This document shows, piece by piece, positions 2,054-24,563 of a stretch of 64,000 nt of DNA (its first letter is position 1; each line of letters starts with the position of its first letter). Origin of the DNA: Chaetoceros tenuissimus (taxonomy: Eukaryota; Bacillariophyta; Thalassiosirophyceae; Chaetocerotales; Chaetocerotaceae); assembly GCA_021927905.1 (NCBI GenBank), contig BLLK01000022.1:1612001-1676000 (forward strand). Reading direction: 5' to 3'. Under the pieces are notes generated by a model. It saw only the letters and a list, made by a program, of their open reading frames with translations, made no database searches and was not told where the DNA came from. The position numbers were made by a program, and so were the translations under genes.

Positions 2054-4389
2054 TCAATTTTTCTTTCTCTTCATCAGATATTCCTCTACTGCAGTAGGTA
2101 GCAACCACCAAATGTTGTCGCTCATCTTTTTGTCTTCAATGTAGGTCAAAGATTCCTTGGTAAAGTTACGCACTTTACGTGAAGTACGTCTCAGCGCCTC
2201 TTCTTTGTATATCTTCTTGGCATCTCTCAATAACTTTTTGTAAGAAGATCGTGGCCTCTCATCAGAAACTTCTTTTGGTTTAGGGAATGATGCTTTGCTC
2301 TTCGATTTAGAACCTTGCATGAAGCTCTCAAAGGTAAGATCATAAAGGCTCGAGGATTCAACCTTTTTGCTTTTCACAACTTGTCCTTCATCGTTGATGA
2401 GTGAATGATGTACAAATGTTCCTGACTCGAGGTCATGCACATAGAGAGGCAAGAGCAACCAGCCATAATGCGAGATTTGATTGATTGCTTCGCAGATGAA
2501 AGTAGCTTCATGATGACTAATGAAGTAGTTGAGATTCACCCTTGCCCAACCCTAATAAAAGTTGAAAGATGAGAACAGAAATGCAAATATAATGAATAAG
2601 ACTCGATGTAATATTACTTACTGGTTTAAATGACGATACATTGAAACAACTCATCAACGAATCATCAAGTTTCCCTTCAAAGTCGAACAAGTCCCATGCA
2701 AGAGGACCGGCACATGAACAGCCTCCGCGAGCTTGGATTCCGTATACATCATTTAGAAGAGCTATTACAAAGTTGTAATGCAAAGGAACATACAAGTTGT
2801 CCGAGTCAACTGTTCCCATGTTAGCTATTTTGTTCAATGGCTCTGCGAATAACCTTCCGAGATTAGTATCGTTATACACTTCTGTTGATGCATTGGAAGG
2901 TGATTTTGGTCTGATATCTAGCTCAATAGGAGATAGAATATTGAATGAAAAGATTGAAACTCTTCGGGTAGCAAAGTGATAGGAGACATGATTTGCACCC
3001 ATCAATGCAATTGCTTTATTAGATCTCCATGCATTCAATGCCAACGAGCAATGAATATTCTCAAGCTTTTCAATGGTATCGCATCCAACCATCTCCTTAA
3101 CTCTAAAGGCAAGTCCAGCTCTAATATCTCCAAGTATGTTAGGAGTCCCGGCATCCTCGCGATGTTCAATCTCTCTCGAATATTGCGCATGTTCCTTATT
3201 TACCAAGTCGACAGTACCACCTGCTGGACTGCTTGCTAGCTGTGTTTCAACATCAAATGCTTTCTTGAATAGATTACGACGAGCGACTAGAACTCCACTT
3301 GCACCTGGACCACCGATAAACTTGTGTGGTGAAAGAAAGGCTGCATCGATAGAGTCATCTTCTGATGTCCCCATTTTCCCTGCCATATCAATTGAGACAT
3401 AAGCTCCAACTCCAGCATAGTCAAAAAAAGCGTAAGCTCCATACTCATGTAATAGCTTAGCAACACTCTTTACTGGAGTTCTAATTCCAGTAACGTTGGA
3501 ACCAGCTGAAAAGGAACCAATCATTGGCGAATTTTGGCTTGCATATTTCTTCAGCTTGTTTCTTAGGTGGTTTAGATCAGGTGTGCCATCCACTCCTATG
3601 TTTCCAAAATATTTGTTAGAGGTTGTTTACTCTACTATATGATTGGCCTGAAACTAAATTACTAACCTTCTTGGATCACTACACATCGCACTGCCGGTGA
3701 CTCTCTCCACATCAATTCATTTGAATGATGCTCATAAGAAGAAATGAATACAACTGGTTTCTCTATGGAAAAAATGTAAGAAATGTAAAAATAACATGAC
3801 CGTGATTGGTGAGAAAAGGGACTTATAATAGCTTACCTTGTTCTGGTATATTCTCACTTAGATCCCATTTCTTCTCTGCGTATTCTGGAATAGAGAAACC
3901 TAATACTGCGAATATCTTCTCGATTGCAGCTGTGGATCCTGAGCCATTGAACAAGACGGCGTATTCCTCTTTTGGAGCATTCAGAGCTTCGTGAATAATG
4001 TTGCGGGCCTCTTCGCGAAGGTGAGTAGTTTGAGCTCCAGTAGCCGAAGCTTCGGTGTGCGTGTTAGCATAAGTTGGAGCCACAACTTTAGTCATGTAGT
4101 CTTCAACGAACTGAAGACAGCGACCTGAAGCAGTATAATCTGCATAAACAATTTCATGTTCTCTATGAAATGGTGAAGAGATACGACATCTCTGTCCAAT
4201 AACATTGGATCGAATAAGCTCAACAGAATCTTTTGATGTTGATGATGATGCAGTGGAAACATCTGATGATGCAGACCTTGCAAGTAGCTTAGCTCGCACA
4301 TCTCCTTTGGAGGAAGGTATCGCCTTTGGAAATTGATCTTTCGCTTTCTGACGGGGAGCTTGTTTTTTCACTAAGAATTGAGCCGTCAT
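2054..4389 (-). CDS. Class V aminotransferase / cysteine desulfurase-like PLP enzyme, four exons (706 aa)
   Basis: Exons (minus strand) are 4389-3837, 3762-3667, 3595-2622 and 2551-2054. All introns are GT-AG (donors GTAAGC, GTTAGT, GTAAGT) and the phases close to one 706-residue frame. The first ATG is at 4389; an upstream in-frame TTG was ignored. Family marks include YADYTASGRCLQ near 100, the EHHSNELMWRE segment made by the small second exon, Asp275 in FFDYAG (PLP ring contact) and Lys308 in SPHKFIGGPG (expected Schiff-base Lys). ARGGCSCAGP follows, with Cys509 and Cys511, typical of a selenocysteine-lyase/desulfurase-like branch. The N-terminal ~60 residues are basic, Ser-rich and low complexity. 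About 160 C-terminal residues extend beyond the core fold, with a Lys-rich region. Substrate is unknown; members act on cysteine, selenocysteine or other amino acids. I am sure of the fold, not of the reaction. Confidence 0.88.
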
Positions 4390-5014
4390 AATGAGCAAGG
4401 TATGATTCTGTGTAAATGTTGTAGATGCTACTGAAAGTGAAGTTTTTAGAACTTAGTTTACAGAGAAAGTTTCTCCTTTTTGCTTTTTTATTTATGAGCG
4501 TGTGTTGCTTTGGGATTCTTCATTTTTTAAGAATGAATACGAGTACCGTCACTCGTAAAACTCACACAGTAGTCTTAACAGTAGTCTTAACGAGTCATTT
4601 CTTCAATGTCCCATCACAGTGTTCTTTTTTGCTCATATCATTGCTTCATCTAATTTCCAGAATCGTCTCTTCTCATTGGCCAATTAGGTTCAAGAGATAC
4701 TATTTTGCAGAATATGAAAAGGTGTCAGAATAAACGTATATATCTTTCCACTGAAGGAACTTTACCAACTTTCAAATAATATATCAGATTCTATTTGCAT
4801 CTTTGTTGAAGAAACTAATTCAATATTCTAGCCCTTTAGATGTCTTCGTGCCAAATAAGTGAATACAATGACGATCACAACAGCGAAAAGATGACAGCAT
4901 GACAGCTCAAGCAAACCAAAACTCAAAAACCAAAAAAGATACTCCTATACATGTCATCAACAAACAGTACTACTGTACCTACCTTATTATTGATTCCTAT
5001 CTCTCTCTAAAATT
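4390..5014. other. Intergenic, divergent promoter region
   Basis: This 625-bp gap lies between the aminotransferase (minus) and the esterase (plus). It is AT-rich, with a pyrimidine-rich stretch (tatctctctct) just before the esterase ATG. A short plus-strand frame at 4425-4733 has no conserved features and was not annotated. Confidence 0.4.
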
Positions 5015-6049
5015 ATGATGAGAGTCTATGCCTTTATCCTATTATCTCTCTCTTACCTGTCTGGCTCGAGTTTTGCCTTCACGAAACCGCATCAGCAGCA
5101 GTCACGACGAAACGAAATGAACAGGAACGCGACGACCAAACTTCATTCTTCTTCATCTATCAACAGCAACTCGGATGCATTTACAATTCTATCCAAAGTC
5201 AAAACAGGTAGAGGCGAGAAAGCAGGAACTTATCATCGCATACAACATGAATCGAAATCAACAGGTACAAACATGACATTTGGCCTCTTTCTTCCAACAT
5301 CGTATACAAAAAACAAGACACCCGTCATGTTTTTTCTCAGTGGATTGACTTGTGACGAATCGAATTTTTCAACTAAAGCCGGTCCATTGGCATTTGCAAC
5401 CGCCGAAGAAGAAAATATATCAATTTGTCTACCGGATACTTCACCACGAGGGGAGAATGTACCCAATGATGAAAATTATGATTTAGGTCAAGGAGCGGGT
5501 TTTTACATTGATGCAACGCAAGATCCATGGAATCAACATTTTCATATGCGATCGTATGTGAGTCAGGAATTGCCAGAGTTTTTAAAAGACGAATTTGGGC
5601 TTGAAGTCAAGAGTGTTTGTGGGCATTCCATGGGTGGGTTTGGTGCTTTATCTCTTGCGTTTGAGAATCCAGAGGAATGGACTGCTGTATCGGCTTTTGC
5701 GCCGATTTCCAATCCTACAAATTGTCCGTGGGGTGAGAAAGCTTTTACAAATTACTTGGGAAGTGCAGAGAATGGAAAAAAGTTTGATCCTACGGCTATG
5801 CTACAAGCTCGAGAGACTGGGTTTGAAACGTTTGATGATATCTTGATTGATCAAGGTTCCGACGATAACTTTTTGGAGGAGCAATTGAAACCTCATTTGT
5901 TGAAGGGTGCAGCAGATAACTGTGGACAAAGAATTACTTTGAATATGAGAGATGGATATGATCATTCATACTTCTTTATTGCAGCATTTATTGAAGATCA
6001 TGTTCGTTTTCATGCCAAGAGATTGCAGGAGAAGATGAGCGAAATGTAA
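5015..6049 (+). CDS. S-formylglutathione hydrolase / esterase D, with secretory or plastid-type leader (344 aa)
   Basis: The enzyme hydrolyses S-formylglutathione to glutathione and formate in formaldehyde detoxification. Visible marks are the oxyanion-region motif FLSGLTCDESNF (about 107-118), nucleophile Ser205 in GHSMGGFGA, the acid in DQGSDDNFL (Asp283 or Asp284) and His317 in GYDHSYFFIAAF. The core of about 285 residues is full length for the family. Unusually, there are about 50 extra N-terminal residues: a hydrophobic signal-like segment (about 3-20) ending SGSSFAFTKP, then a Ser/Thr/Arg/Asn-rich stretch. A cleavage site just before Phe22 fits the diatom ASAFAP-type bipartite plastid presequence, so this copy may act in the plastid or secretory path rather than the cytosol. 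The last part of this gene and its 3' flank recur as debris beside three ANK-RING copies. Confidence 0.9.
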   Translation: MMRVYAFILLSLSYLSGSSFAFTKPHQQQSRRNEMNRNATTKLHSSSSINSNSDAFTILSKVKTGRGEKAGTYHRIQHESKSTGTNMTFGLFLPTSYTKNKTPVMFFLSGLTCDESNFSTKAGPLAFATAEEENISICLPDTSPRGENVPNDENYDLGQGAGFYIDATQDPWNQHFHMRSYVSQELPEFLKDEFGLEVKSVCGHSMGGFGALSLAFENPEEWTAVSAFAPISNPTNCPWGEKAFTNYLGSAENGKKFDPTAMLQARETGFETFDDILIDQGSDDNFLEEQLKPHLLKGAADNCGQRITLNMRDGYDHSYFFIAAFIEDHVRFHAKRLQEKMSEM

Positions 6050-6170
6050 TGGAAATAACGTTCTCTCTAATAGATGCTTTCCTACAAAATGTACTTGTTA
6101 TATATTATACTAGTGGTCTACTCTATCCCCTTAGACCTAGCATACTGCTAATTGTGATCGCTACTGGTTT

Positions 6171-7952
6171 TCAAATTGAATTAGTAACTCGGCTGCAAAG
6201 ATAGCTGATTTGCGCCTTCAGAACTTGCTCTCTTTGCATAGCTTCCGAGAGCTCTGATTGAAGAGAGTCAATTCTATCGTCCTTTTCTTTTGCAAGCATT
6301 GCAAATTTGCCCAACAATGGATCCTTTCTAATATCAGTTTGAAAGGAAAAGTCTGTTCTACAAACAGGGCATTTATTTCCTCTTTGTTCAAAGGATTGAG
6401 TAATACAACCCTTACAGAAGCGATGACAGCATTTTGTAATGACATGAACATTGCTCATGATGTCAAAACAAATTGGGCATTGCATGTTATCAGACAATGC
6501 TGGTTGCACTGGTAGAGTCTTCGTATTACGGTCGATATATTCCTTGAGCTCAGTTGGCCACATACTCTCTGCCTTTCTACCACGATGATCTTTGGCTTCC
6601 ATCAATTTGGGGCCACCAATGGAAACCAAATATTCGATGACTTCTACGTCAAGGATGTCTCTATCGGATGCATAGTGAAGTATAGTCCCTTCCTCCCCTT
6701 GATGATCAAGTAATTCTTTGCCACCTAGACTCATAACAAGTTTTACACATTTTAGATCCGTTCTCAGACACCTCATAAACTCACTAAGAGCACTGATATC
6801 GTTGTAATTTGTTTCAAGAAGAAGTTTCCAGCCTGTTTTAGAAAGTATGAATGCAATAAGATCGTGATGTCTTTCAAAATCTTCCCTTTTGAGATCTCTG
6901 ACATCAATATCCATGAGTTCAGCAAATATATCATGACAAGCGCTGTGTAAGCAGGTACTTCCTTCGCCATCCTTCAGTTCCAAGACCCGAGTACCCATAA
7001 CATCAACAAATTGTTTTGCAATATCAAGAGGACCATGACGCTCACACAATTTATGAAACGGTAATTCATAACGAACGCTATACGTAGTAAAGCATTTCAT
7101 TTTTTCGTCTTTGGACACTCCCTCATCAACTAAATACTCTCGAACTCTTTCAAATTGGCGATTGTCAATCCAGTCAAAGAATTCTTTTGGAGAAACGCCA
7201 GCATTTGTGAGGCTTTTGATGTGCTTTCGAACTCTATGACTTCTTGGATACTTTTGAAGATGATCAATAATGATATCTCTCTGCGTTTTATTTGTAACTT
7301 CCAAGATACCAACTCCGTCATTGTCTTGGAGTTCTAGTATATCTAAACCACATACCTTCAGTAGTAGATTGATGATTCTAGGGCATTCTCCGTTCCAACC
7401 TAAATATTTGTAAAATAAAGGCCTTTCTCCAGGCTTATAAACAAGATTTGGGCCACCTCTTGAAAGTAACAACTCTACTACATCATACGAGACAGTCGTA
7501 TATTTTAATGCAGGATATCTCTGAACAAGATAATCACTGCTATGTAGCAATGCTTCCTTAAACATTGTGCATCCACTTTCCTCAAAAAAGAAATTCTCAA
7601 GACAATCAATGATGTTTTGAATTAATGCAATAGGTGCACCCTTGTTTACAGGCATTCTACAGCATAGAGAGTAGGACTTTTGAAGAACGAGCTTCTTGTC
7701 AGCTTTTAAAATAGTTTCATCGGAAAGGAACTTTTGAAAAGTATCCCAGTCTTTCTCCTTGCATACTTTATAGAGGCGATCCTTTATCTCTTCTATTTCA
7801 CTCTCGTTCAGCTTTTGGATAGCATTTGAGTCAGATCCTAGTACTTCTTGTCCGTCATTTCTTTCTTGTGATGTCGGCGTTTCATTCCTGTCGCTGCTAC
7901 TACTAGTGTTCATATTCATTGCTCCTATGGTACTACTAAAGAAGCTTTGCAT
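6171..7952 (-). CDS. ANK-RING 1: ankyrin-like repeat protein with C-terminal C3HC4 RING (593 aa)
   Basis: This is a putative E3 ubiquitin ligase. The N-terminal ~45 residues are Ser/Asn/Gln-rich and low complexity. About 50-470 is made of degenerate ankyrin-like units (examples: VVELLLSRGGPNL, LPFHKLCERHGPLDIAKQFVD, TCLHSACHDIF, GTILHYASDRD, VIEYLVSIGGPKL). The RING is at about 492-531 with CPIC, CCHRFC..C and CPVC, all eight metal ligands present. A short coiled coil ends the protein. The start is the ATG at 7952, giving MQSFFSSTIG, the same MQ[SNG] start seen in other copies. It is closest in sequence to ANK-RING 3, 4 and 5 (subgroup A: FDIMSNVHVITKCCHRFC). Its promoter carries TGACGTCA at 8180 and is then interrupted by the transposon. 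The substrate is unknown. Confidence 0.85.
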   Translation of the reverse strand: MQSFFSSTIGAMNMNTSSSSDRNETPTSQERNDGQEVLGSDSNAIQKLNESEIEEIKDRLYKVCKEKDWDTFQKFLSDETILKADKKLVLQKSYSLCCRMPVNKGAPIALIQNIIDCLENFFFEESGCTMFKEALLHSSDYLVQRYPALKYTTVSYDVVELLLSRGGPNLVYKPGERPLFYKYLGWNGECPRIINLLLKVCGLDILELQDNDGVGILEVTNKTQRDIIIDHLQKYPRSHRVRKHIKSLTNAGVSPKEFFDWIDNRQFERVREYLVDEGVSKDEKMKCFTTYSVRYELPFHKLCERHGPLDIAKQFVDVMGTRVLELKDGEGSTCLHSACHDIFAELMDIDVRDLKREDFERHHDLIAFILSKTGWKLLLETNYNDISALSEFMRCLRTDLKCVKLVMSLGGKELLDHQGEEGTILHYASDRDILDVEVIEYLVSIGGPKLMEAKDHRGRKAESMWPTELKEYIDRNTKTLPVQPALSDNMQCPICFDIMSNVHVITKCCHRFCKGCITQSFEQRGNKCPVCRTDFSFQTDIRKDPLLGKFAMLAKEKDDRIDSLQSELSEAMQREQVLKAQISYLCSRVTNSI

Positions 7953-8204
7953 CCTGTTGGCTAATATCTTATTCTAGTTGATTCAATGTACTGGTGTTTT
8001 CAATAGACTTCGATTAGAATTCGCATGAATAGTATGAAGATATTCACATAAATCTTCTATCTTCCACATCCTCTTTTCCTCTCACTCTTCTCCGCGTCTC
8101 GGGTCTCGGGTCTCGGGTCTCGGATCCTTCTTGCACTCGAAAATGTTGAGGCTAAAATAATCGGAACAAAAACGTCTTTCTGACGTCAATGACAAATAAG
8201 GATA
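7953..8204 (-). promoter_or_regulatory. Promoter block of ANK-RING 1, cut by the transposon
   Basis: It contains the family's conserved upstream block, including ggatccttcttgcactcg (8122-8139), tctttctgacgtcaatgac and the TGACGTCA palindrome at 8180-8187. A triple ggtctcg-type short repeat lies at 8100-8122. In sister genes the block continues into atatagcattggaaat, but here that continuation is found only at 14031 and beyond, on the far side of the inserted element. Confidence 0.65.
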
Positions 8205-8206
8205 TT

Positions 8207-8620
8207 CATATCCATATCCAGTTGGGCTGCCGTCGGGGCGGTTTTCGCGCCAAAAACCCCGCCCCGACGGGAAAAGAAAAAACATCAAATTTCCAACGAA
8301 AAAACTTACATAAACTAGACATGAGTTTTTATCTGAACTATTCATTACTTTACACAACAACCAACCATGTTTCACCTTCCATATTTTATCAAGATATACA
8401 ATAGGTGACAATCTAATAGAATCGTGATCGGTAAGTTATAGTTTTGCGATTTGCAGCCAAACGATAAATTTGAAAGTGATGACTAATTTTTCCTTTACAA
8501 AACGATTTTTCTAGAAGCTAGGCGAGAATTGGGGTCATGGAGGTGGTGTAGAATAGTGTTGCAACGGTTCAAGAGTTGATTTGGGGTCTAATGCGGATAT
8601 GCGCAAGGTTGGATTGGCGA
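8207..8620 (+). repeat. Left terminal inverted repeat arm
   Basis: It matches the reverse complement of 13634-14030 almost base for base from ttttcgcgccaaaaacc (8242) inward to ggattggcga (8611-8620). The outer 35 bases are less alike: both share atccatatccag, then differ for about 20 bases. The left arm has an extra half of a GC-rich palindrome at 8230-8241. A frame on the minus strand at 8082-8411 is a by-product of the repeat and has no ATG. Confidence 0.85.
8230..8270. repeat. GC-rich perfect hairpin near the left end of the transposon
   Basis: ccgtcggggcgg (8230-8241) and ccgccccgacgg (8259-8270) form a perfect 12-bp stem around a 17-base spacer, ttttcgcgccaaaaacc, which can itself pair further (ggtttt with aaaacc). 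This GC content is strongly out of line with the AT-rich surroundings. The right end carries only one half (13983-13995). Confidence 0.8.
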
Positions 8621-8718
8621 TTCTAAATAGATTTAAGAGTAAACAAGAAATTAAATATTTTCATTTCTACGTAAATTAATTTCCACTCGATCATGCTTCC
8701 TTTCTACACCTGTACTTC

Positions 8719-9315
8719 TTACAAAAAATCGTGAGTAGGCCAGCTTTGACTGTTTGGGCCGTCACCGTCCACATCGTACTCAACTTCATCAGTTTCCTCC
8801 TCAATTTCCTCTTCAGCTTCCTCCTTCAATTCTTCCTCTAAATTTTCTTCAGCATTTTCTTTCTCATCAACTTTCTCAGTGATCTTTTTGGTCTTGGCCA
8901 AAACCTTCAATTGGTGCATGAAATTATAAACATCAAGAAAGTTTCTTGCGGTCATTTCTCCGTCTTTGCTATCCTTGAATGATACGCAAAAGTTACGAGG
9001 AAATCCTTCGCGAAAAATGGAAACATCAAACGCATTGAATACAACCGTATCCTTGCGCAACTGGTGGAACTTGGCTGGCAAATCCGAAATGCAGCTATTA
9101 AGAACAAGCTGATGACCAACATAAGCGACCACAAAAGCATGATTTGAATTACTTCCTTTCTTTTTAAGAATATAAATTTTGAGTCTATTCTCTTCACGAT
9201 CCTGCTTACCCCCCTTTCGGTAGGTGTCTCCATTCTTCCTTCCGATACGAAACATGTATGAAAATTCGCTTTGGTAAAGCACAGCGAAGTTTTCGTCTTT
9301 GATTGAGATTGCCAT
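8719..9315 (-). CDS. Transposon accessory protein with acidic tail (198 aa), unknown function
   Basis: It lies inside the element, divergent from the transposase gene with a 268-bp shared promoter region. The ATG is at 9315. Residues 1-140 alternate short hydrophobic beta-like strands with basic turns (RKGGKQDREENRLKIYILKK), giving a compact globular look. Residues about 150-185 are almost purely Glu/Lys/Asp/Ala (KENAEENLEEELKEEAEEE), probably a charged coil or disordered tail. I do not recognise the domain. Position and frame integrity suggest a second transposon protein, perhaps a DNA-end or chromatin-binding partner of the transposase. That is inference. It might also be a captured host gene. 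Confidence 0.6.
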   Translation of the reverse strand: MAISIKDENFAVLYQSEFSYMFRIGRKNGDTYRKGGKQDREENRLKIYILKKKGSNSNHAFVVAYVGHQLVLNSCISDLPAKFHQLRKDTVVFNAFDVSIFREGFPRNFCVSFKDSKDGEMTARNFLDVYNFMHQLKVLAKTKKITEKVDEKENAEENLEEELKEEAEEEIEEETDEVEYDVDGDGPNSQSWPTHDFL

Positions 9316-9583
9316 TGTTATATTTACGTATTTGTTTTTATGAGAAAGTGATTGCAGTTTTTAGTCTTGTTCCATCGGAATCACTTATGGCAGTAAGTCA
9401 TGGATATGATTTAAAAATCAGTCCCATTTTGAATAAGGATTCTTCTTTTCCATAGGCAAAGACTTCGTAAACTCGAAAGTTCTAAAGTGAACATACATTC
9501 TAAAGCAATCAGTAGAAAAATGTTTCAATCAATATGGACACAAGTACTTCAAGATTACTCTTACACTATATGATTTCTGCGAA

Positions 9584-12500
9584 ATGGCTGGACCAATTCA
9601 GCAATCGTTTGAAGAAATAGACTGGACTCTTATCAAAGAAATTGAAGAGTCAGAGTTGTACTTTGATACTCCAAATGAATTTGAGGATTGTATTTTGAAT
9701 GCAGAAGAATTGAAAGTTTTTTTAACTCCTCCTGCTGCGGATGAATGGAAAGACTTCTCCAGCAATGAAAATGCCACAATTTTTAATATCGACGATGCAA
9801 AAGAAAGACAATGGCAGATGGGAAAAGTCGAGATAGAACATCTACGGAATAAGTTGAAAACAACTTTTGGTATTGATTATCAATCTCTATCCTTGGAGGA
9901 TCTTGCATCATCTATTATCTTCACAACACTTGGTCCAGAAAGTAAATTTGGTTCGTTTTTCGCTGAGGAACTTTCGTTGAGTAAAATGGAATATGCGGCT
10001 TTTATGTGCACTCTTTTTACTCAAGCTGCCTATCGAGTTAGTGTAACCGAGCTTTATTTGCCTCAGTCTAGATTGAAAGTGCCTATGGAAGAAGAGGATT
10101 ATCTCAAGGTGTGGGAGAATATGGCAAAAAAAAAGAAGATTCCAGAGTTTGAAATGCGCACACCTATGTCACCTATTCCGCTTTGGAAAGGTGTTGAAGA
10201 AATAGTAAATACACTCTTGAGAACTGTATCTATTATCGACCGAAGGGAAATCATTTCTATATCGCTTGATGATGATAAAGTTTGGTTTGGTTCAACAAAA
10301 GCGCGAACAACAGATCAATTTGATATTAAGTTTACAACTCATGTCAAACCGAATAGAAAAGGCATCGTGGTACATACTGCTGTAACTACAGGGGTAATGG
10401 TTCCTGTTGCTGCAACTGTACAACAGACCAATGATGATAGTGTGAGCTGCTTTGAAAGAATTTTTACCTTTCTTTTTGGATCTGGAGGAAAACTTGATTT
10501 AAGAAATGTTGAAGTTCAATCAGATAGAGGATATATGCTACCAAATCTTGTGTTTGATTTGATTCTTCGTCACGGAGGTAATCTTGTTGGCACATGTAAA
10601 AGAATTGCAAACTGTTGGCCATTTACACACAACCAAAACCTCGCTGACAACGATACTCGCACACTCATAGAAACCAAAGGAGCACCATCTTTGTTCTTGA
10701 AATATTTCAGTGTCGATCGTGGAGAGAAGACAATTTTTGCTTCTTCATTTCGAAATGGATCTGGAGCTGTTGCAACTGCACTTTCAACTTTGCATGGAAA
10801 TCATCAATGGGAGGGCATTGCATTAAAACCATCTGAGAGAATTTTATATAACAAAGATTCAACTTTTTTTTCTTCCAAATTCCTTGTTGGGATTGATATT
10901 GATGACGGTGTAAATAAATTTACTGACGACAATATTGAAATTTCTTTGCGAAATGATATTATGAACCAAATAAAGCCATTTACATTGCGACAAGGTAAGA
11001 TTGTGAAATTGAATTCGCTTTTAAAAAAATGAAATGATTGGCTCATTTTTCATTCATAGGAACTGCAGATTGGTTTTGGTTGCGCAAATTTAGCCTGACA
11101 TCTTCCCAAGCACATGGAGCCTTCCTAAAGTTACTTCCTGACAAGACAGATAATGATGATTGGATTAAAGTTGCAACTTACCTCTATGGTGAAGATTGGG
11201 CTGAAGTCCTTGGTCTAGGAGCTCAGGAACAAGATAGTTCAGATACAACTACTACAAATGATGACCTAAAGTCGTTTCTTCAAGAGTACGACGTTGGATC
11301 GTCGGAGTGCAAAAAATGCGCTGTCAGTTTTTTGCGTGAATATGTTGAAAGCGAGATTGTGCTTAGCAAAGAAAATGCAAAGACGATTTGGACAGGCATC
11401 AATTTTGAAAATGTAAATCGAGCAGAAATCAAAAGAGACATCAAGGCGATACTAGCAGAATTCAATCCAGAAATGCTTGGAATGAAAAATGCAAATGATA
11501 CCTTGATGCAAGAATGGCTATCATCTTGCAATTCAAAACGAGAAATTTTATTTTACAAGATCCAAAGTCTAAAAGAAATCATGAAGAGAAGACACTTGAA
11601 GAAGAGACAGGGCGTTTCAAATCTTAATGCGTCCGACATGATTGATGGAATTTCAGGTTCTGACAGGACAAAGATTGTTGAAGATGTTTCTCTTGAACGC
11701 GATGTAGATAACTTATCAAGCAGGGAAAAAGCTGTTCTAGAAGTTTTGAAAAAAAGCTTTATGCCGCACCAGAAGGGTAAGGATCGGGAGTATTGTCAAA
11801 TTGGACATCGACTAGAATTACCAATACTAAAGAAGTTTGTGGAGCTCATTCCAAGAGTCCGAGAATACTCAAATGTCAAAGTGAAGAATGCGTACACTGT
11901 AGGACTCGCTGCCAAGAAAGATGCAGTGTACGCAAAGGACTCTATTGACTTTCTTTTGTCAGTAGAGGAGAATAACATGCGTTCAATCTGGGGTTTTGAA
12001 TGCAAAGGTCGAGTCACTCACTCAACAGAGGAAGAGGAGAGGCAAAACTTTACTCTGAATCAAAACCCACATCTTCGTATACAATCGAGAGATGTCTTTG
12101 AAATGATTCAGCGTGTCAGTGAAAGATTCCAAGTCTTACAGCATGTGTTTGTATACGATCTAGATACTGTTGTTCATGCCATAGGAAACTTGAATGCTTC
12201 GCTAATCCGAACATGTATCATTGATTTTGACAATGACATCAAGGATAGTTTTGGAGCTGTGCTTGACGACATCAAGCATGAAACCTTAGAGTGGGCTTAT
12301 CCTACTGTTCTGACTGGTAGGAACGAAGTTCTACCCATTCCAGATGAGATAGTTGATATTGCTGTCAAATTTATACCAGAGATAAACGATGAAGAGACTC
12401 TGCAAGGTGCTGTAAACTTGTGGCACGTTCTACGTCAACAAGTTTTGCCAATGCCATCTTTCCGAAGATTGATCCCAGCAGTATGTGCATATTGGAATGC

Positions 12501-13245
12501 AACAAAAGGAGGTTCAGACACGATCACCAAACTGATGGATAGCTGTATCCTCCGCATTCCTAAAGCATGGATGAATAATGAAACAGTTGCAATTACTCGC
12601 CTTGTACAACTTTTGACGACTTTAAATCATCGCCTTCTTCAGTGCGGAACTGGCTCCGAAAATCTCAACTATCCAAGCCTCTTACATTGGCGACATGCTG
12701 CAAGTGAAAGAACATCATATCATACAACACTCCTTTTCCATGTAACTGCGTTTCAAAAATATATAGATGAATGCAAGACTTCTGAAGTTATGCCAATGAC
12801 ACGAGTAGAACCTCCTCGTCGTACTGATCGAAGAGCACGTGTTGACGGAATATTGCCTGAGAAAATTGACTTTGCTCCAACTGCCCCAAATATTTGTACT
12901 CCGCCAAGACTTGCATCAATGCTTGAAAGCGGCAATGAGCCAACAGAGTACAAAACAATGGCTAGGCGCTGTATGGGTTCTATTATGCAAGCTTATCCAC
13001 CAAAAGCAAACAAGTCTTGCGCACTTTGTAAAAAGAGTACAGGTTACTATTGTACTGGTTGTAAACGTTGGTTTTGTTTCGCAAAACAGAAAAAGAATGC
13101 AGAGAATCTTTATTCTCACACTGTGCAAGGAACAGAAATGTCATTCATCAAAACTTGTTTCCATACAGCACACGAAGACTGTTGGAACGAATACTACACT
13201 GAGTCGATCAGAGAAGATGAAGTTCCTTGTGTTTCACCATCATAA
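9584..13245 (+). CDS. Transposase-nuclease fusion: PiggyBac-like DDE + YqaJ-type PD-(D/E)XK + zinc ribbon (1198 aa, two exons)
   Basis: Exons are 9584-10994 and 11060-13245. The 65-bp intron starts GTAAGA, ends TTCATTCATAG, splits a Gly codon and keeps the frame (3597 nt). Domain 1 (about 150-450) is DDE-like: SLDD (Asp229/230) with KPNRKGIV downstream, then QSDRGYMLPNLVFDLILRHG with Asp314, followed by GTCKR and a Pro, the pattern of PiggyBac second-Asp blocks (CDN.FTS..L, GT.R.N...P). Domain 2 begins right after the splice with DWFWLRKFSLTSS, a lambda-exonuclease/YqaJ N-motif. It continues with GHRLELPILKKF (Glu723), SIDFLLS (Asp767) and FECKG (Glu784, Lys786), the PD-(D/E)XK set. Domain 3 (about 1124-1181) is a Cys/His ribbon, CALCKKSTGYYCTGCKRWFC then CFHTAHEDC, like the PiggyBac C-terminal ribbon. 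The third DDE acid is not certain. It presumably mobilises the surrounding element. Confidence 0.8.
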
Positions 13246-13633
13246 AAATTGCAAACGAAGATTCAAAGAGGAGAAATTGATGTATTTTTAGAATTATTAT
13301 AACTATTTAATTTCTTGTTCACTCTGAATTTCTTTTTATGTACAGAAGATATTGTATTAAATATTTGGTATTGACCGTCAGAGAAAACATCATATTCGGA
13401 ATTCATCATCGTTTTACTTCGGTTCCATTTTTTGCCACCACAACATATACCATACTCTAATGGACTATATCGTTATTAGAAACAAATATTGAAATGTTCA
13501 AATGATTCATGCCAAGTAAGTACCATAGAGATCAACGGTAATCAATTCAGAAAATCCTAAAGCCAAATTCATTATTTTCTTCAAATTCGTTTGGTCGACA
13601 TCCATGTCATAAATGAGCCAATTGAGCTTGAAG
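13246..13633. other. 3' flank of the transposase gene inside the element
   Basis: This stretch of about 390 bases is AT-rich and non-coding, between the transposase stop and the inner edge of the right inverted repeat. Nothing further is recognised. Confidence 0.4.
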
Positions 13634-14030
13634 TCGCCAATCCAACCTTGCGCATATCCGCATTAGACCCCAAATCAACTCTTGAACCGTTGCAACACTA
13701 TTCTACACCACCTCCATGACCCCAATTCTTGCCTAGCTTCTAGAAAAATCGTTTTGTAAAGGAAAAATTAGTCATCACTTTCAAATTTATCGTTTGGCTG
13801 CAAATTGCAAAACTATAACTTACCGATCACGATTCTATTAGATTGTCACCTATTGTATATCTTGATGAAATATGGAAGGTGAAACATGGTTGGTTGTTGT
13901 GTAAAGTAATGAATAGTTCAGATAAAAACTCATGTCTAGTTTATGGAAGTTTTTTCTTTGGAAAGTTGATGTTTTTTCTTTTCCCGTCGGGGCGGGGTTT
14001 TTGGCGCGAAAACGCAAAAAACCTGGATAT
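13634..14030 (-). repeat. Right terminal inverted repeat arm
   Basis: This is the inverted partner of 8207-8620. From tcgccaatccaaccttgcgc (13634) outward to ttggcgcgaaaac it mirrors the left arm with few mismatches. The plus-strand frame at 13843-14073 is the same repeat-derived frame as on the left and starts at TTG, so it is not called a gene. Confidence 0.85.
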
Positions 14031-14294
14031 GGATATAGCATTGGAAATACTTTTCAATTCGCATTCTATGTAAGAAATGCCTGAAAATTTCATTTGATAT
14101 CGTATTACTGGCTTTCTATTGTGGATTATAATTTTACTATCGACGTCATTTTCAATGTGCTGAATTCATTTCTTAGCATGCACAATTCCTAAAAAATCGA
14201 ATAATCTTTGTTCTACATCTATATTACGGTATTTTCTACCCCAGAATGGATGGTGATTGTTTTTCTACTACTTATGCAATAGTTTTCGAAGTAT
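14031..14294. other. Severed distal part of the ANK-RING 1 upstream region and 3' flank of ANK-RING 2
   Basis: ggatatagcattggaaat with a downstream ttcgcattctatg continues the family promoter block interrupted at 8204. After about 14090 the sequence is AT-rich 3' flank of the minus-strand ANK-RING 2, ending tttttctactacttatgc. Confidence 0.55.
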
Positions 14295-16211
14295 TCACAA
14301 ATCATCTTGCTTCCGCTTGAGTGCATTCTGTAGTTGTTCTCTCAAAGATTGATTTTCTTTCTGCGATTCTAAGAGCTGTGCCTGAAGTTCTTCTCTTGTA
14401 CCCTTCTCTTCCTTGATAGCCATTGCAAGCTTACCCAACAATGGATCCTTTTTCACATCCCTCATGGAAAACTCTGTTCTACAAACAGGACAAGTATTTC
14501 CTCTTTTCTTGTAAGACTGCGTGATACAGCTCTTGCAAAAGCGATGGCAACATTTGGAAATTATTCGGCCATCAAACAAAGTGTCAAAACAGATTGGACA
14601 TTGTAGTTCATCAGACAATGTTGGTAATGTCTTGGTGGTGAATGCAATATATTCTTTGAGCTCATCTGACCATTTATCTTCAGCCTTCACACCATTGCTA
14701 TTCTTGACTTCTGTTAATCGCGGACAGCCTACGGAGACTAAGTACTTGATGATTTCTTTGTCTGGTAGAATTTTAAATGATGCATAGTGAAGGATAGTAT
14801 GCCCTCCGTACTTATAACCGTCGATTTCTTTATCCCGAAATGCAAGCAAATCATCGCCTACAATCTTTAGAACTGATCTTACACATTCCACTTTTGTCAG
14901 TCTGCACATCATCAAATTCCAAAGAGCACTGTCGTCTTTTTCATTTGTTTCCAGGAGAAGCTCCAATCCTCCTTGTGAAAGTAAAAAAGCAACGAGCTCG
15001 CAATGAGCTTCAATATCACTATCTGTAGGCTCTTCGTCTTCATGGTCAAAGAAATATGAGAAACCACAAGCTTTGTGTAAACAATTATTCCCATCCTCAT
15101 CTTTAAAAAATAAGACATCTTTGCCCACAATGTCAACAAATTTCTCCGCTATATCAAGAGGACCATGATTTTCACAAAACGAATGAAATGGACGACCATC
15201 CAATGCAGTTTGAACATTGATACACTTCATTTTTGCCTCAATAGACACTTCGTCACTATCCAAGTAACTTCGGACCAGATCGAATTCTTTATTACTGTTC
15301 CAGTCATAAAAATCTTTCGGAGTCACATCCCTCGCTTCGAATGCTTCAATATGTTTCTGGACTCTTGGACATTCCTTCAAAGTTTTGAGATAATCAACAA
15401 TGATTTTTCGTTGAGATTCGTTCGAAAAGTCTCTAGCACTGTATCCGTCTTCATCTTCAATTTCGAGCAGTTCTAATCCCCCTACCTCCAATAGTAAATT
15501 GATTATTTTGGGACAGTATCCTCGTTCTAAATATATTTGCAATGGAGTCCTTTTCCTTTCTGATTTACAATTTGATCTCATATTTACAAGCTTCTTCCCT
15601 CCACTAGACACCAGGAGCTCGATTACATCAAAAGATACTTCTTCTGCGTTATAACGCATTGATTCTTTGGTAAAACGAAGTGCTGAATGTAGCCACGAGG
15701 AATCTGAATCTCCAAAAGTCAGATATTGGGGAGACTCAGGATCCATCACGTCTATCATACCTTTGATCACAACAAAAGGAGCTGTACTAGGAGCTCTATG
15801 TACAAGAGCATTTCTGCAGCATTTTGAATTATGCTTTTGAAGAACAATTCTCTTGTCTTGGTTTGAAATAGACTTGTCAGAGAGAAAGTCTTCAACCTGT
15901 TGCCATCTTTTCTCACAACAAGCACTTTGTATTGTTGAATGTAAATTGTAAAGCTCCATCAATTCATCTTCACTTCTAGATCCAATCGAATCATCCTCGA
16001 AATATTTAAAAATATCCCACTCTTCCTCTTCATTTTCGTCATAAAGTTCATCCTTTTCCCTTGCTATCTCATTTTCGTTGGATCCTAGAATTTCTTGTTC
16101 GTCATTTTCTTGTGATGTTGATGACGTTTCTTCATTCCTATTGCTGCTACTGGTGTTCATGATGCTGCCTTCATTCATTGCTCCTCTGATACTACTAGTG
16201 GAGCTTTGCAT
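14295..16211 (-). CDS. ANK-RING 2: ankyrin-like protein with C-terminal RING (638 aa)
   Basis: The start is taken at the ATG at 16211 (MQSSTSS); the in-frame codon three positions upstream is TTG. The N-terminal ~110 residues are low complexity and acidic (DELYDENEEEEWDIF). Ankyrin-like units run from about 110 to 530, including FDVIELLVSSGGKKLVNM, RPFHSFCENHGPLDIAEKFV, NCLHKACGFS, HTILHYASF and EIIKYLVSVGCPRL. The RING lies at about 538-577 (CPICFDTLFD..., CCHRFCKSC, CPVC) with all ligands. A Gln/Glu-rich coiled coil ends in KRKQ. It belongs to subgroup B with ANK-RING 6 and 8 (FDTLFD, VNMQSNCKS). Putative E3 ubiquitin ligase of unknown target. Its promoter has only a mutated CRE, TGACTTCA at 16405. 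Confidence 0.85.
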   Translation of the reverse strand: MQSSTSSIRGAMNEGSIMNTSSSNRNEETSSTSQENDEQEILGSNENEIAREKDELYDENEEEEWDIFKYFEDDSIGSRSEDELMELYNLHSTIQSACCEKRWQQVEDFLSDKSISNQDKRIVLQKHNSKCCRNALVHRAPSTAPFVVIKGMIDVMDPESPQYLTFGDSDSSWLHSALRFTKESMRYNAEEVSFDVIELLVSSGGKKLVNMRSNCKSERKRTPLQIYLERGYCPKIINLLLEVGGLELLEIEDEDGYSARDFSNESQRKIIVDYLKTLKECPRVQKHIEAFEARDVTPKDFYDWNSNKEFDLVRSYLDSDEVSIEAKMKCINVQTALDGRPFHSFCENHGPLDIAEKFVDIVGKDVLFFKDEDGNNCLHKACGFSYFFDHEDEEPTDSDIEAHCELVAFLLSQGGLELLLETNEKDDSALWNLMMCRLTKVECVRSVLKIVGDDLLAFRDKEIDGYKYGGHTILHYASFKILPDKEIIKYLVSVGCPRLTEVKNSNGVKAEDKWSDELKEYIAFTTKTLPTLSDELQCPICFDTLFDGRIISKCCHRFCKSCITQSYKKRGNTCPVCRTEFSMRDVKKDPLLGKLAMAIKEEKGTREELQAQLLESQKENQSLREQLQNALKRKQDDL

Positions 16212-16404
16212 CCTACTCAATCGAGACTAAATACGTAAAAACTAGTAGAGTCAATTTACAATTGCTTTCAATAGACTTTGAGTTGATTCGAATTTGAATT
16301 ATTGTGAGATGAGGGAAGAATAGAGAGATACTCTCTTCTACTCTCTGCCGTTCAGCCATCTTTGCGTCAAAATGTGGCTAAAATATTCATATCTCACGTC
16401 TTTC

Positions 16405-19958: not shown

Positions 19959-20196
19959 GATGTTGTCCCACAATGGTTCACTCGTTGCTCCTCTTGCACT
20001 ACTAGAGAAGCTTTGCTTTCTGCTTAATATGTAAATTCTAGCAAAGTCGATACTATTAGTGCTTTCAATGGAAATAGCTATGCTGTGTTGGAGTTGGTTC
20101 TATGCTGTTCCATCATCTTTGCGTCTCGGTCTCGGATCCTTCTTGCACTCGTAAAAAAAGTAGGCTCAAATCTTCGAAACAATGGAAATGTCTTTC

Positions 20197-20204
20197 TGAC
20201 GTCA
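20197..20204. promoter_or_regulatory. CRE palindrome TGACGTCA upstream of ANK-RING 3
   Basis: It lies within the block tctttctgacgtcaatgac, followed by ccagggagatatagcattgg, as at the other subgroup A genes, about 240 bp from the present start. TGACGTCA is a bZIP (CREB/ATF) site; related elements drive CO2/cAMP responses in Phaeodactylum promoters. Function here is inferred. Confidence 0.65.
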
Positions 20205-20375
20205 ATGACTTCCCAGGGAGATATAGCATTGGAAAATAATTTTGAATTTGCATTATATGGGAAAGATTGAAAATTAAATAGATCGGAGGATAAAATGAGC
20301 AAACCATAATCGAAATAATGTTCAATCTAAATAGAAACTTGCGTACAAAATATGTTTACCAATGAAGATGAGCAA

Positions 20376-22679: not shown

Positions 22680-23106
22680 CCTGCTCAATCGCGTCTAATA
22701 GGTAAAATCTAGTAGGGTCAATTTACTCTTGCTTTCAGCAGACCTTGATTGAATTAGCGTGAGTAATGGAATGGGCTGCCTTTTGCATATGTGGTGAATA
22801 CATCATTACTATCTTTTTTCGCTTTGTTTCCATCCTGTTCCATCATCATCTTACTTTGCGTCTTGGGTCTCGGATCCTTCTTGCGCTCTCATCAAATTAT
22901 GGCTAAAATATTCATATCATTTCTTTCTGACGTCAATGACACGCAAAGGATATAGCATTGGAAATAATTTTGAATTCGCATTGTATGGGAAAGATTTAAA
23001 TCTATATGAATATAGATCACAGGGAAAAAAGTGTGTAAAACGTGATAGAAATAACGTCCAATCAAAAAGAAACTAGCGTACAAAATGTGATTGTTATTAC
23101 ATTATA
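22680..23106. promoter_or_regulatory. Promoter of ANK-RING 4 fused to an esterase-tail relic
   Basis: It contains ggatccttcttgcgctc (22872), TGACGTCA (22928-22935), aaggatatagcattgg (22946, the intact form of the transposon target), then ttgaattcgcattgtatggg. Its distal end, gtacaaaatgtgattgttat followed by attatactagtagttgtctacc (23068-23105), matches the esterase 3' flank and runs straight into the truncated ANK-RING 5. Confidence 0.6.
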
Positions 23107-23946: not shown

Positions 23947-24563
23947 CCTGCTCAATATGTAAATTCTAGTTTGGTCAATGTATTAGTGCTTTCAACAGAC
24001 TTTGATTGAGAACTTGAGTTAGCGTGAGTGTGATATGAAAAAAGATATGCCGGCGGTGGTTCCATCACATCGCGGTCTTGCGTCTAGGATCCTTCTTGCA
24101 CTCTTGAAAAAGTAGGCTAAAATCTTCGAAACAATGGATTCTGATTCTGTCTTTCTGACGTCAATGACATCCCAGGGAGATATAGCATAGCATTGGAAAT
24201 ATTTTATTAAGTTCGCATTTTATGGGAAAGATTGAACACTATGTATGATTATAGATCGCAAGAGAAGATGAGCAAACCGTTTGGTTTTTTTGAGAAAACC
24301 AACTTACTTTCCTCGGAAATCATTTCAATAAGAAATGACATCGAGATTATTTCAATATGCCCATGTTTCATTTAGTAAGGCAAAAATAGTGGTTGAAGAT
24401 TTAGATTTTCTTTTGTAGATTACATGTGTACATTGGTCTTCATCTGAATTCAAGAGTTAGCATAGAGACATCCCAAAGCAATGTATCTCGGTTGAAATCC
24501 CAGATTGGATGGTGATTTTCGACCAATCTATCCTAGTACTACATATTATGTTTTTCGAAGCAT
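23947..24563. promoter_or_regulatory. ANK-RING 5 promoter and ANK-RING 6 3' flank
   Basis: ggatccttcttgcactc (24087), TGACGTCA (24156-24163) and catcccagggagatatagca (24169) are present with a small ata/gcat duplication before attggaaat. After about 24290 the sequence is unrelated AT-rich spacer downstream of ANK-RING 6. Confidence 0.6.

Follow-up and report, generated by a model that had tools for sequence, protein, structure and literature searches.

A putative transposase–nuclease fusion protein in an inverted-repeat DNA transposon of the diatom Chaetoceros tenuissimus

The closest coding capacity found among described transposons is that of ISL2EU (PHIS), a eukaryotic terminal inverted repeat (TIR) element with a DDE transposase and a separate YqaJ-type exonuclease, which generates a 2-bp AT-rich target duplication with a preference for A/T at the outer positions (PMC4482050, PMC9179366). 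The function of the ISL2EU YqaJ protein is stated to be unknown (PMC4482050). Here we describe a TIR DNA transposon of the diatom Chaetoceros tenuissimus, contained in a stretch of 64,000 nucleotides (the window; GenBank assembly GCA_021927905.1, contig BLLK01000022.1, positions 1,612,001 to 1,676,000), whose large protein (the window protein) appears to combine a transposase and a nuclease. In ISL2EU the YqaJ protein is encoded by its own open reading frame (ORF), the duplication is AT, the tips usually begin with GG and THAP/HTH domains are present, whereas the window element encodes one protein, duplicates TA and has TATCC tips.

The window protein appears to share with PiggyBac transposases, in the same order, a K-P-x3-G-I stretch, the strand of the second catalytic aspartate (D2) with LVGT, a KGGxD-T motif and a C-terminal ribbon. 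PiggyBac differs in its TTAA duplication (PMC9587614), in its tips (CTTAACCC in a PiggyBac element of the same genome, L018) and in having no nuclease. The spacing between the second and third aspartates (D2 and D3) is 101 residues in piggyBac 6x67 (D346–D447) compared with 643 between the candidate aspartates of the window protein. By the tests run, the window element is not a member of PiggyBac. Lambda exonuclease, LHK-Exo and YqaJ share the motif register of the nuclease part and lead its structure matches, but are stand-alone phage or bacterial proteins.

Other described systems also combine a transposase with further functions. In Tn7, compared here as a mechanism only, an endonuclease (TnsA) and a DDE transposase (TnsB) act on opposite strands and sometimes form one chain (PMC8188705), but the natural TnsAB fusions are bacterial and end-to-end. 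KolobokP is likewise a eukaryotic DDD/E transposon encoding a nuclease; this, however, is a His-Me finger homing endonuclease encoded by a separate gene on the complementary strand, and the superfamily duplicates TTAA (PMC9587614). In Teratorn, which joins a piggyBac-like element and a herpesvirus in teleosts, a piggyBac-like transposase mobilises unrelated genes (PMC5822658), but whole elements and not protein domains are fused; the window element has two ORFs, none with an accepted viral family. Among the literature matches listed, where coverage of Repbase reports and subscription papers was slight, no title or abstract concerned a YqaJ domain inserted into a transposase, and the excerpts of PMC7826175 and PMC13289751 describe no such transposase–nuclease fusion.

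The predicted transposase–nuclease protein

Exon 1 (9584–10994, forward strand) encodes the N-terminal region and the first part of a DDE-like core, and exon 2 (11060–13245, forward strand) the nuclease, the probable third part of the DDE core and a zinc ribbon. Splice-site checks and translation gave one frame of 1198 residues when the exons were joined by removal of a 65-nt GT-AG intron (10995–11059, forward strand). When donors at 10981–11040 and acceptors up to 11075 were tested, two GT-AG choices kept the frame, 10995–11059 (65 nt, 1198 residues) and 10995–11068 (74 nt, 1195 residues).

A relative in the same genome, L016 (C34:782726-786443, 3718 bp, tips TATCCCAYTCC), contains an ORF that is 30–35% identical to the window protein over both halves and is intronless at the junction point (FLTREQGTSDWF compared with FTLRQ/GTADWF in the window protein). 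Intron length differs between the window copy (65 nt) and two other copies of the element, L010 and L012 (67 nt), whereas each has a spliced coding sequence of 3597 nt. None of the 8 indel events that distinguish the window copy from L012 falls within either coding gene of the element, and one, of 2 nt, is within the intron. The uninterrupted L016 frame, the varying intron length at constant coding length and the avoidance of coding sequence by indels argue that the intron is real, which bears out the initial annotation, where two frames had been joined by a 65-nt GT-AG intron into 1198 residues. In L016 the motifs of the first catalytic aspartate (D1), D2, the nuclease and D3 are all found in a single uninterrupted 879-residue frame, so the fusion does not depend on the intron. 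Based on these sequence comparisons, the transposase and nuclease parts very probably belong to one protein.

The nuclease part, predicted to be of the lambda-exonuclease/YqaJ type, spans residues ~471–900 (11060–12348, forward strand) and includes a variable insert of ~180 residues (~506–686). Residues R28, S35, E85, D119, E129, K131 and Q157 of lambda exonuclease correspond in motif register to R479, S486, E723, D767, E784, K786 and Q828. The spacing within W-x2-L-R-x6-S and G-x3-E is the same in the two proteins, while the D-to-E spacing is 10 in lambda exonuclease and 17 in the window protein. Counterparts of the E, D, E-x-K and Q positions are present in L016 and in a fragment of a degenerate relative in the same genome (L015), both 32–38% identical in this region; the G-x3-E glycine is absent from L016. 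E723, D767, E784 and K786, all found on translation as they had been named initially, are unchanged in L012.

Structural comparisons were made with models of L016. An AlphaFold model of residues 436–750 was built from 4 sequences, with a mean predicted local distance difference test (pLDDT) of 45.6 and a predicted template modelling score (pTM) of 0.48. Among the 50 structure-aligned matches listed for this model, the first 7 (Z 7.6 to 6.5) comprised LHK-Exo, lambda exonuclease and one further phage exonuclease; the remaining 43 appear to be mostly PD-(D/E)XK-type nucleases. Foldseek placed lambda exonuclease and LHK-Exo at ranks 1–5 (E 0.005–0.024, probability 0.89–0.99). With a model of the whole L016 ORF (mean pLDDT 37.8), the first six structure-aligned matches were LHK-Exo and lambda exonuclease.

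Several results weigh against this assignment. The confidence of both models is low, all listed structure matches to the model of residues 436–750 have Z <8, which according to the tool may mean a common arrangement only, and matches within 1 Z are tied, so that some of the lambda group rank level with other PD-(D/E)XK nucleases. Neither model had a Foldseek match at E <= 0.001, and with the whole-ORF model acetyl-CoA carboxylase came first and lambda exonuclease at ranks 2–4. A profile of the nuclease was marginal against 12 phage exonucleases, its scores being reached by 2/100 and 5/100 shuffles. No Pfam model was above cut-off in any part scanned. Likewise, PF09588 had no match genome-wide at E<=1, nor in the pieces scanned, and searches of PHROGs and of PDB sequences with the window protein gave no acceptable assignment. 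Armadillo matches (best E 0.00018) were dismissed as short repeats, each <4 bits in the three printed. On the motifs and models together, the nuclease in all likelihood belongs to the lambda-exonuclease family. The YqaJ/lambda-exonuclease-type nuclease of the initial annotation is supported, with clear motifs and modest fold support; in the profile and structure check of that proposal, the structure matches led to the lambda family and Pfam gave no match.

Three candidate catalytic aspartates were placed on the forward strand: D229 in SLDDDKVW (codon 10268–10270), the least certain of the three, D314 in SDRGY (10523–10525) and D957, the probable third, in YWNATKGGSDT (12517–12519). L012 and L016 share the D229 motif. 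The position of the D1 motif varied between MAFFT alignments (opposite IDES; a few residues off; VDKF opposite IDES), so D1 is less sure than D2.

Pfam transposase models gave no match to the window protein at E<=1 or to the L016 ORF at E<=5. A genome-wide search with PF13843 found six places, none of them a copy of the window element, and four of the six proteins served as the PiggyBac comparison set. Against these four, the D1–D2 block scored 27.8 (P = 0.0045), which was reached by 0/100 column shuffles. Against L018 alone D2 was in register, with 2/100 shuffles reaching the score. Controls gave 84/100 shuffles for D1–D2 against phage exonucleases and, with hhalign, 19/60 against one Harbinger-type (DDE_Tnp_4) protein of the genome. 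When two PDB PiggyBac stretches were added, 0/60 shuffles reached the score and the match comprised the K-P-x3-G-I part only; in a four-sequence set that included two PDB PiggyBac sequences, D1 and D2 were in register (2/60 shuffles). The D3 stretch YWNATKGGSDTITKL resembles YYNQTKGGVDTLDQM of piggyBac, with YWNATKGGSDT aligned to YYNQTKGGVDT in piggyBac 6x67, and PiggyBac D3 fragments were not placed at KSGSD by MAFFT. Once the nuclease is left out, hhalign matches the core to PiggyBac over its full length with the parts in corresponding order (global P 0.012, without shuffle control).

Other results count against a PiggyBac-related core that continues beyond the nuclease. The best-scoring D1–D2 alignment has a gap that displaces D2, and in the wider-set alignment (0/60) the matched stretch includes neither aspartate. 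The D3 region performed poorly against shuffles (8/100 and 75/100; 9/60 out of register and 13/60 in register), and no PiggyBac was found when parts of the window protein were searched against PDB sequences. The whole-L016-ORF model gave no PiggyBac among the 50 matches listed for each of structure alignment and Foldseek, but the DDE half was unmodelled in it, and this is no evidence of absence.

Taken together, the alignments weakly suggest a DDE/D RNase H-like core distantly related to PiggyBac, with a resemblance that is weak but collinear. Since the motif of the probable third aspartate lies after the nuclease, the nuclease probably interrupts this core, between D2 and D3. The PiggyBac kinship given to the catalytic part in the initial annotation is weakly supported: the D1–D2 block beats shuffles, and no Pfam transposase match was found among the members scanned. 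The order given there, a DDE core followed by a nuclease, holds for D1 and D2 but not for the probable third aspartate, D957, and an interrupted core appears the better description. The terminal Cys/His zinc ribbon (13015–13200, forward strand) is present as proposed. It aligned to the PiggyBac ribbons of the genome with an hhalign probability of 66% (P 5.4e-5, without shuffle control), and no Pfam ribbon match was found in the window protein; the L016 ribbon matched DUF2180 below threshold (E 0.0026, 18.3 of 22.2 bits).

Copies of the element and its target site

The gene sits inside a complete TIR DNA transposon, a point absent from the initial annotation. The element is 5827 bp (8209–14035, forward strand), with the tips TATCCATATCCAG ... 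CTGGATATGGATA, in which the terminal TA on either side represents the target duplication. Comparison of copies defined a 13-bp perfect TIR, consisting of the left tip TATCCATATCCAG (8209–8221, forward strand) and its inverse, the right tip (14023–14035, reverse strand). Further inside are two long inverted-repeat arms of 380 nt, the left (8241–8620, forward strand) matching the right (13634–14013, reverse strand) at 98%. The element also carries a second conserved ORF on the minus strand (8719–9315, 198 residues), likewise absent from the initial annotation, which is present in 7/7 copies and has no accepted family.

The genome searched (41.0 Mb, 68 contigs) holds seven copies of the element, at different sites and with different flanks. 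Exon 1 was found at seven places, exon 2 at six in full and at one truncated by a contig end, the accessory ORF at seven and the TIR at 13 (seven left and six right). The 13-nt tip occurs 17 times in the genome; 13 of these occurrences belong to the copies, and the other four were dropped, as there was little similarity past the tip (L128 continues TTGGG). The window copy is identical to L009 across 5827 bp and to L014 over the 3510 bp present; L010 is identical to L011 (5829 bp) and L012 to L013 (5852 bp). Compared with the window copy, L010/L011 have 12 substitutions and L012/L013 have 149. No stops were reported within the exon 1, exon 2 or accessory-ORF frames searched across copies. When the window copy is compared with L012, the ratio of non-synonymous to synonymous substitution rates (dN/dS) is 0.36 in the transposase and 0.11 in the accessory ORF; changes are few overall, and the accessory ORF has 9. 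Because the copies are identical within three groups, the element moved recently; from the dN/dS values, both genes look selected. It is proposed to be an autonomous cut-and-paste DNA transposon, with one large protein bearing two nuclease active sites.

The base preceding the TA is A at 13/13 left ends (the seven copies of the window family, L016, and five loci with L016-type ends, L121–L125). The base following it is T at 8/10 right ends (G in L009, A in L124); L014, L122 and L125, which have no usable right end, are omitted from this count. L010 is inserted inside a repeat; when its flanks are joined through a single TA, they match five other places at 100% (rounded) over the whole stretch. 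The join was inspected in one of these places and in another site of 89% identity. For the L016 insertion, an empty site at 97% is uninterrupted across the join. For the window insertion, paralogous empty sites were found at 20123–20275 (forward strand, 77% to the joined flanks) and 22860–22987 (forward strand, 76%), and a third, diverged one at 24074 is gapped at the join. L025 was left out of the empty-site count. The end-base counts and empty sites exclude a TTAA duplication and favour a duplication of TA in an ATAT context (A|TA|T). A 4-bp ATAT duplication is disfavoured, since the right end reads ATAG in L009, although this copy is identical to the window copy over 5827 bp, and ATAA in L124. 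Ordinary PiggyBac behaviour is thus not supported: the duplication, absent from the initial annotation, is TA and not TTAA, and the tips read TATCC.

Possible reaction and rival readings

In the reaction proposed here, the protein would bind the TATCC tips and the long inverted repeats, and the DDE core would nick, expose the 3' ends and join these to TA targets within ATAT. Cutting or trimming of the non-transferred 5' strand, or of the adjoining flank, would fall to the embedded nuclease and replace the hairpin step of PiggyBac. Labour would be split as in Tn7, with the DDE core in the place of TnsB and the nuclease in that of TnsA. Taken as a whole, this reading of the element, its protein and the reaction has close to even chances. 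Tn7 requires TnsC and target selectors, and TnsA is, to our knowledge, outside the lambda-exonuclease family. The nuclease would probably be inserted between the second and third catalytic residues, the slot occupied by the insertion domain in RAG and Hermes. The RNase H fold of RAG is interrupted by an insertion domain, and residues of the Hermes insertion domain shape the DNA for the hairpin (PMC6900584). Second-strand solutions in DDE transposons include a second hydrolysis, hairpins on the element (piggyBac) and hairpins on the flank (hAT, RAG) (PMC6900584). In Tn7-like systems the enzyme for the 5' strand is TnsA, without whose active site the products are mainly cointegrates, and TnsAB fusions that occur in nature are functional (PMC8188705).

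Second-strand cutting or end processing by the nuclease is suggested by this analogy at somewhat less than even chances, and the strand cut is inferred only. A point against it is that enzymes of the lambda family are 5'-3' exonucleases and not obvious strand-specific endonucleases. The nuclease might instead take no part in excision and, along the lines suggested in the initial annotation, resect the donor break 5' to 3' after the DDE cut, with repair copying from a sister or homologue so that the element gains copies. Such resection would suit lambda/YqaJ enzymes, which are processive 5'-3' exonucleases feeding recombination, and would suit the three sets of identical copies (3, 2 and 2 members) found at separate sites, but simple recent transposition also yields identical copies and resection is considered unlikely. 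The second-strand or end-processing role is preferred because a nuclease in the insertion slot would be well placed for the same DNA. A further reading, of very low probability, is that the nuclease has lost its catalytic activity and acts purely as an insertion domain, for DNA binding or structure. Among the three parts where dN/dS was computable, the value is highest (0.55, window copy compared with L012) in the nuclease region, variable insert included; the counterparts of E723, D767, E784 and K786 in L016 and the L015 fragment, and their identity in L012, argue against a dead enzyme.

Two other readings were considered. A complete core before the nuclease (D229, D314 and E410) is possible, with the nuclease and ribbon as C-terminal additions in an end-to-end fusion like a reversed TnsAB. 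E410 of HQWEGI is conserved in L016 and lies 96 residues past D314, similar to the piggyBac spacing of 101 (D346–D447), and the D3 match is weak when taken alone. However, KGGSDT/KSGSDT follows the nuclease in both members, like KGGVDT in piggyBac, the core without the nuclease aligns as a whole and in order, and the L016 counterpart of E410, E389, is in coil in a low-confidence model; this arrangement is accordingly rated as doubtful. A member of PHIS/ISL2EU whose separate YqaJ gene was fused to the transposase would account for the pairing of a DDE transposase with YqaJ and for a 2-bp AT-rich duplication, the target being A|AT|T in ISL2EU (PMC4482050) and A|TA|T here. Such an origin is improbable: the duplication is TA and not AT, the tips begin TATCC/TCC and not GG, neither the window protein nor the L016 ORF has a THAP or DDE_Tnp_4 Pfam match, and the hhalign comparison with one DDE_Tnp_4 protein of the genome was at shuffle level (19/60).

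The interrupted core, with the nuclease between D2 and D3, is therefore kept as the preferred arrangement. It raises the tentative suggestion, held with rather less than even confidence, of a separate eukaryotic DNA-transposon superfamily with a lambda-exonuclease-type nuclease in the insertion slot of its RNase H core. This would be a one-chain eukaryotic counterpart of TnsA plus TnsB, with the activities for both strands present in every protomer, in which the hairpin would be bypassed and targets would have changed from TTAA to TA. If true, a nuclease within a DDE core would be a new second-strand solution beside hairpins, repeated DDE cleavage and TnsA. The fused nuclease suggests that the YqaJ part belongs to the transposition reaction and is not a passenger. 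The fusion offers a single protein in which the role of the nuclease could be tested by point mutants, and, since copies are identical and open, such a test could plausibly work.

Relatives in the same genome and minor features

Searches for relatives outside this genome found none in viral contigs, genome contigs or phage collections; these were non-eukaryotic sets, with contigs scanned by exact short peptides, so the result says little. In L016, a ~50-bp tandem duplication at 5387–5490 breaks the frame ahead of the zinc ribbon. The accessory ORF of the window element (8719–9315) is divergently transcribed and encodes an acidic C-terminus; a genome search with it found no match at the L016 element.

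Four places have L016-type ends around an interior of ~0.96 kb: L121 (439–1400), L123 (212–1172), L124 (180–1131) and L122 (418 to about 1380), the right tip of L122 being lost. Their ends match those of L016 over ~82 and ~90 bp, the right end of L122 over 48 bp, and L121 is 98% like L123 and 97% like L124. The longest frame of L121, the only one of the four checked, is 68 residues. These elements are likely to be non-autonomous derivatives of the L016 type. L125 retains 35 bp of an L016-type end.

L017 encodes a stand-alone ribbon protein, an ORF of 364 residues (3632–4726) whose C-terminal ribbon is 30% identical over 69 residues to that of the transposase. No transposase or nuclease match was found at L017 in the search of the genome with the window protein, and the ribbon is possibly a captured domain. 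The conventional PiggyBac element L018 (1931–4588; G000:C27:2126230-2128887, minus strand; PF13843 E 1e-46) has an apparent DEDD 3'-5' exonuclease upstream of its PiggyBac frame, with one stop between. The exonuclease matches are weak (RNase_T E 0.23, Rv2179c-like E 0.061), and its motifs are those we take to be of the DEDD type. L018 would be a second pairing of an exonuclease with a PiggyBac-type frame in the same genome.

GC-rich palindromes occur just inside the tips, in the window element at 8222–8270 (CCGTCGGGGCGG...CCGCCCCGACGG in the left end) and in L016 at 2427–2515 and 6055–6144 (GCGCGACAGTCGCG); in both they are perhaps a second recognition site. The window element is flanked by paralogous ankyrin-RING genes at 6171–7973 and 14295–16226, Pfam having been run on the second only. 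The empty sites of the window insertion come from stretches further right that resemble the upstream regions of ankyrin-RING genes.

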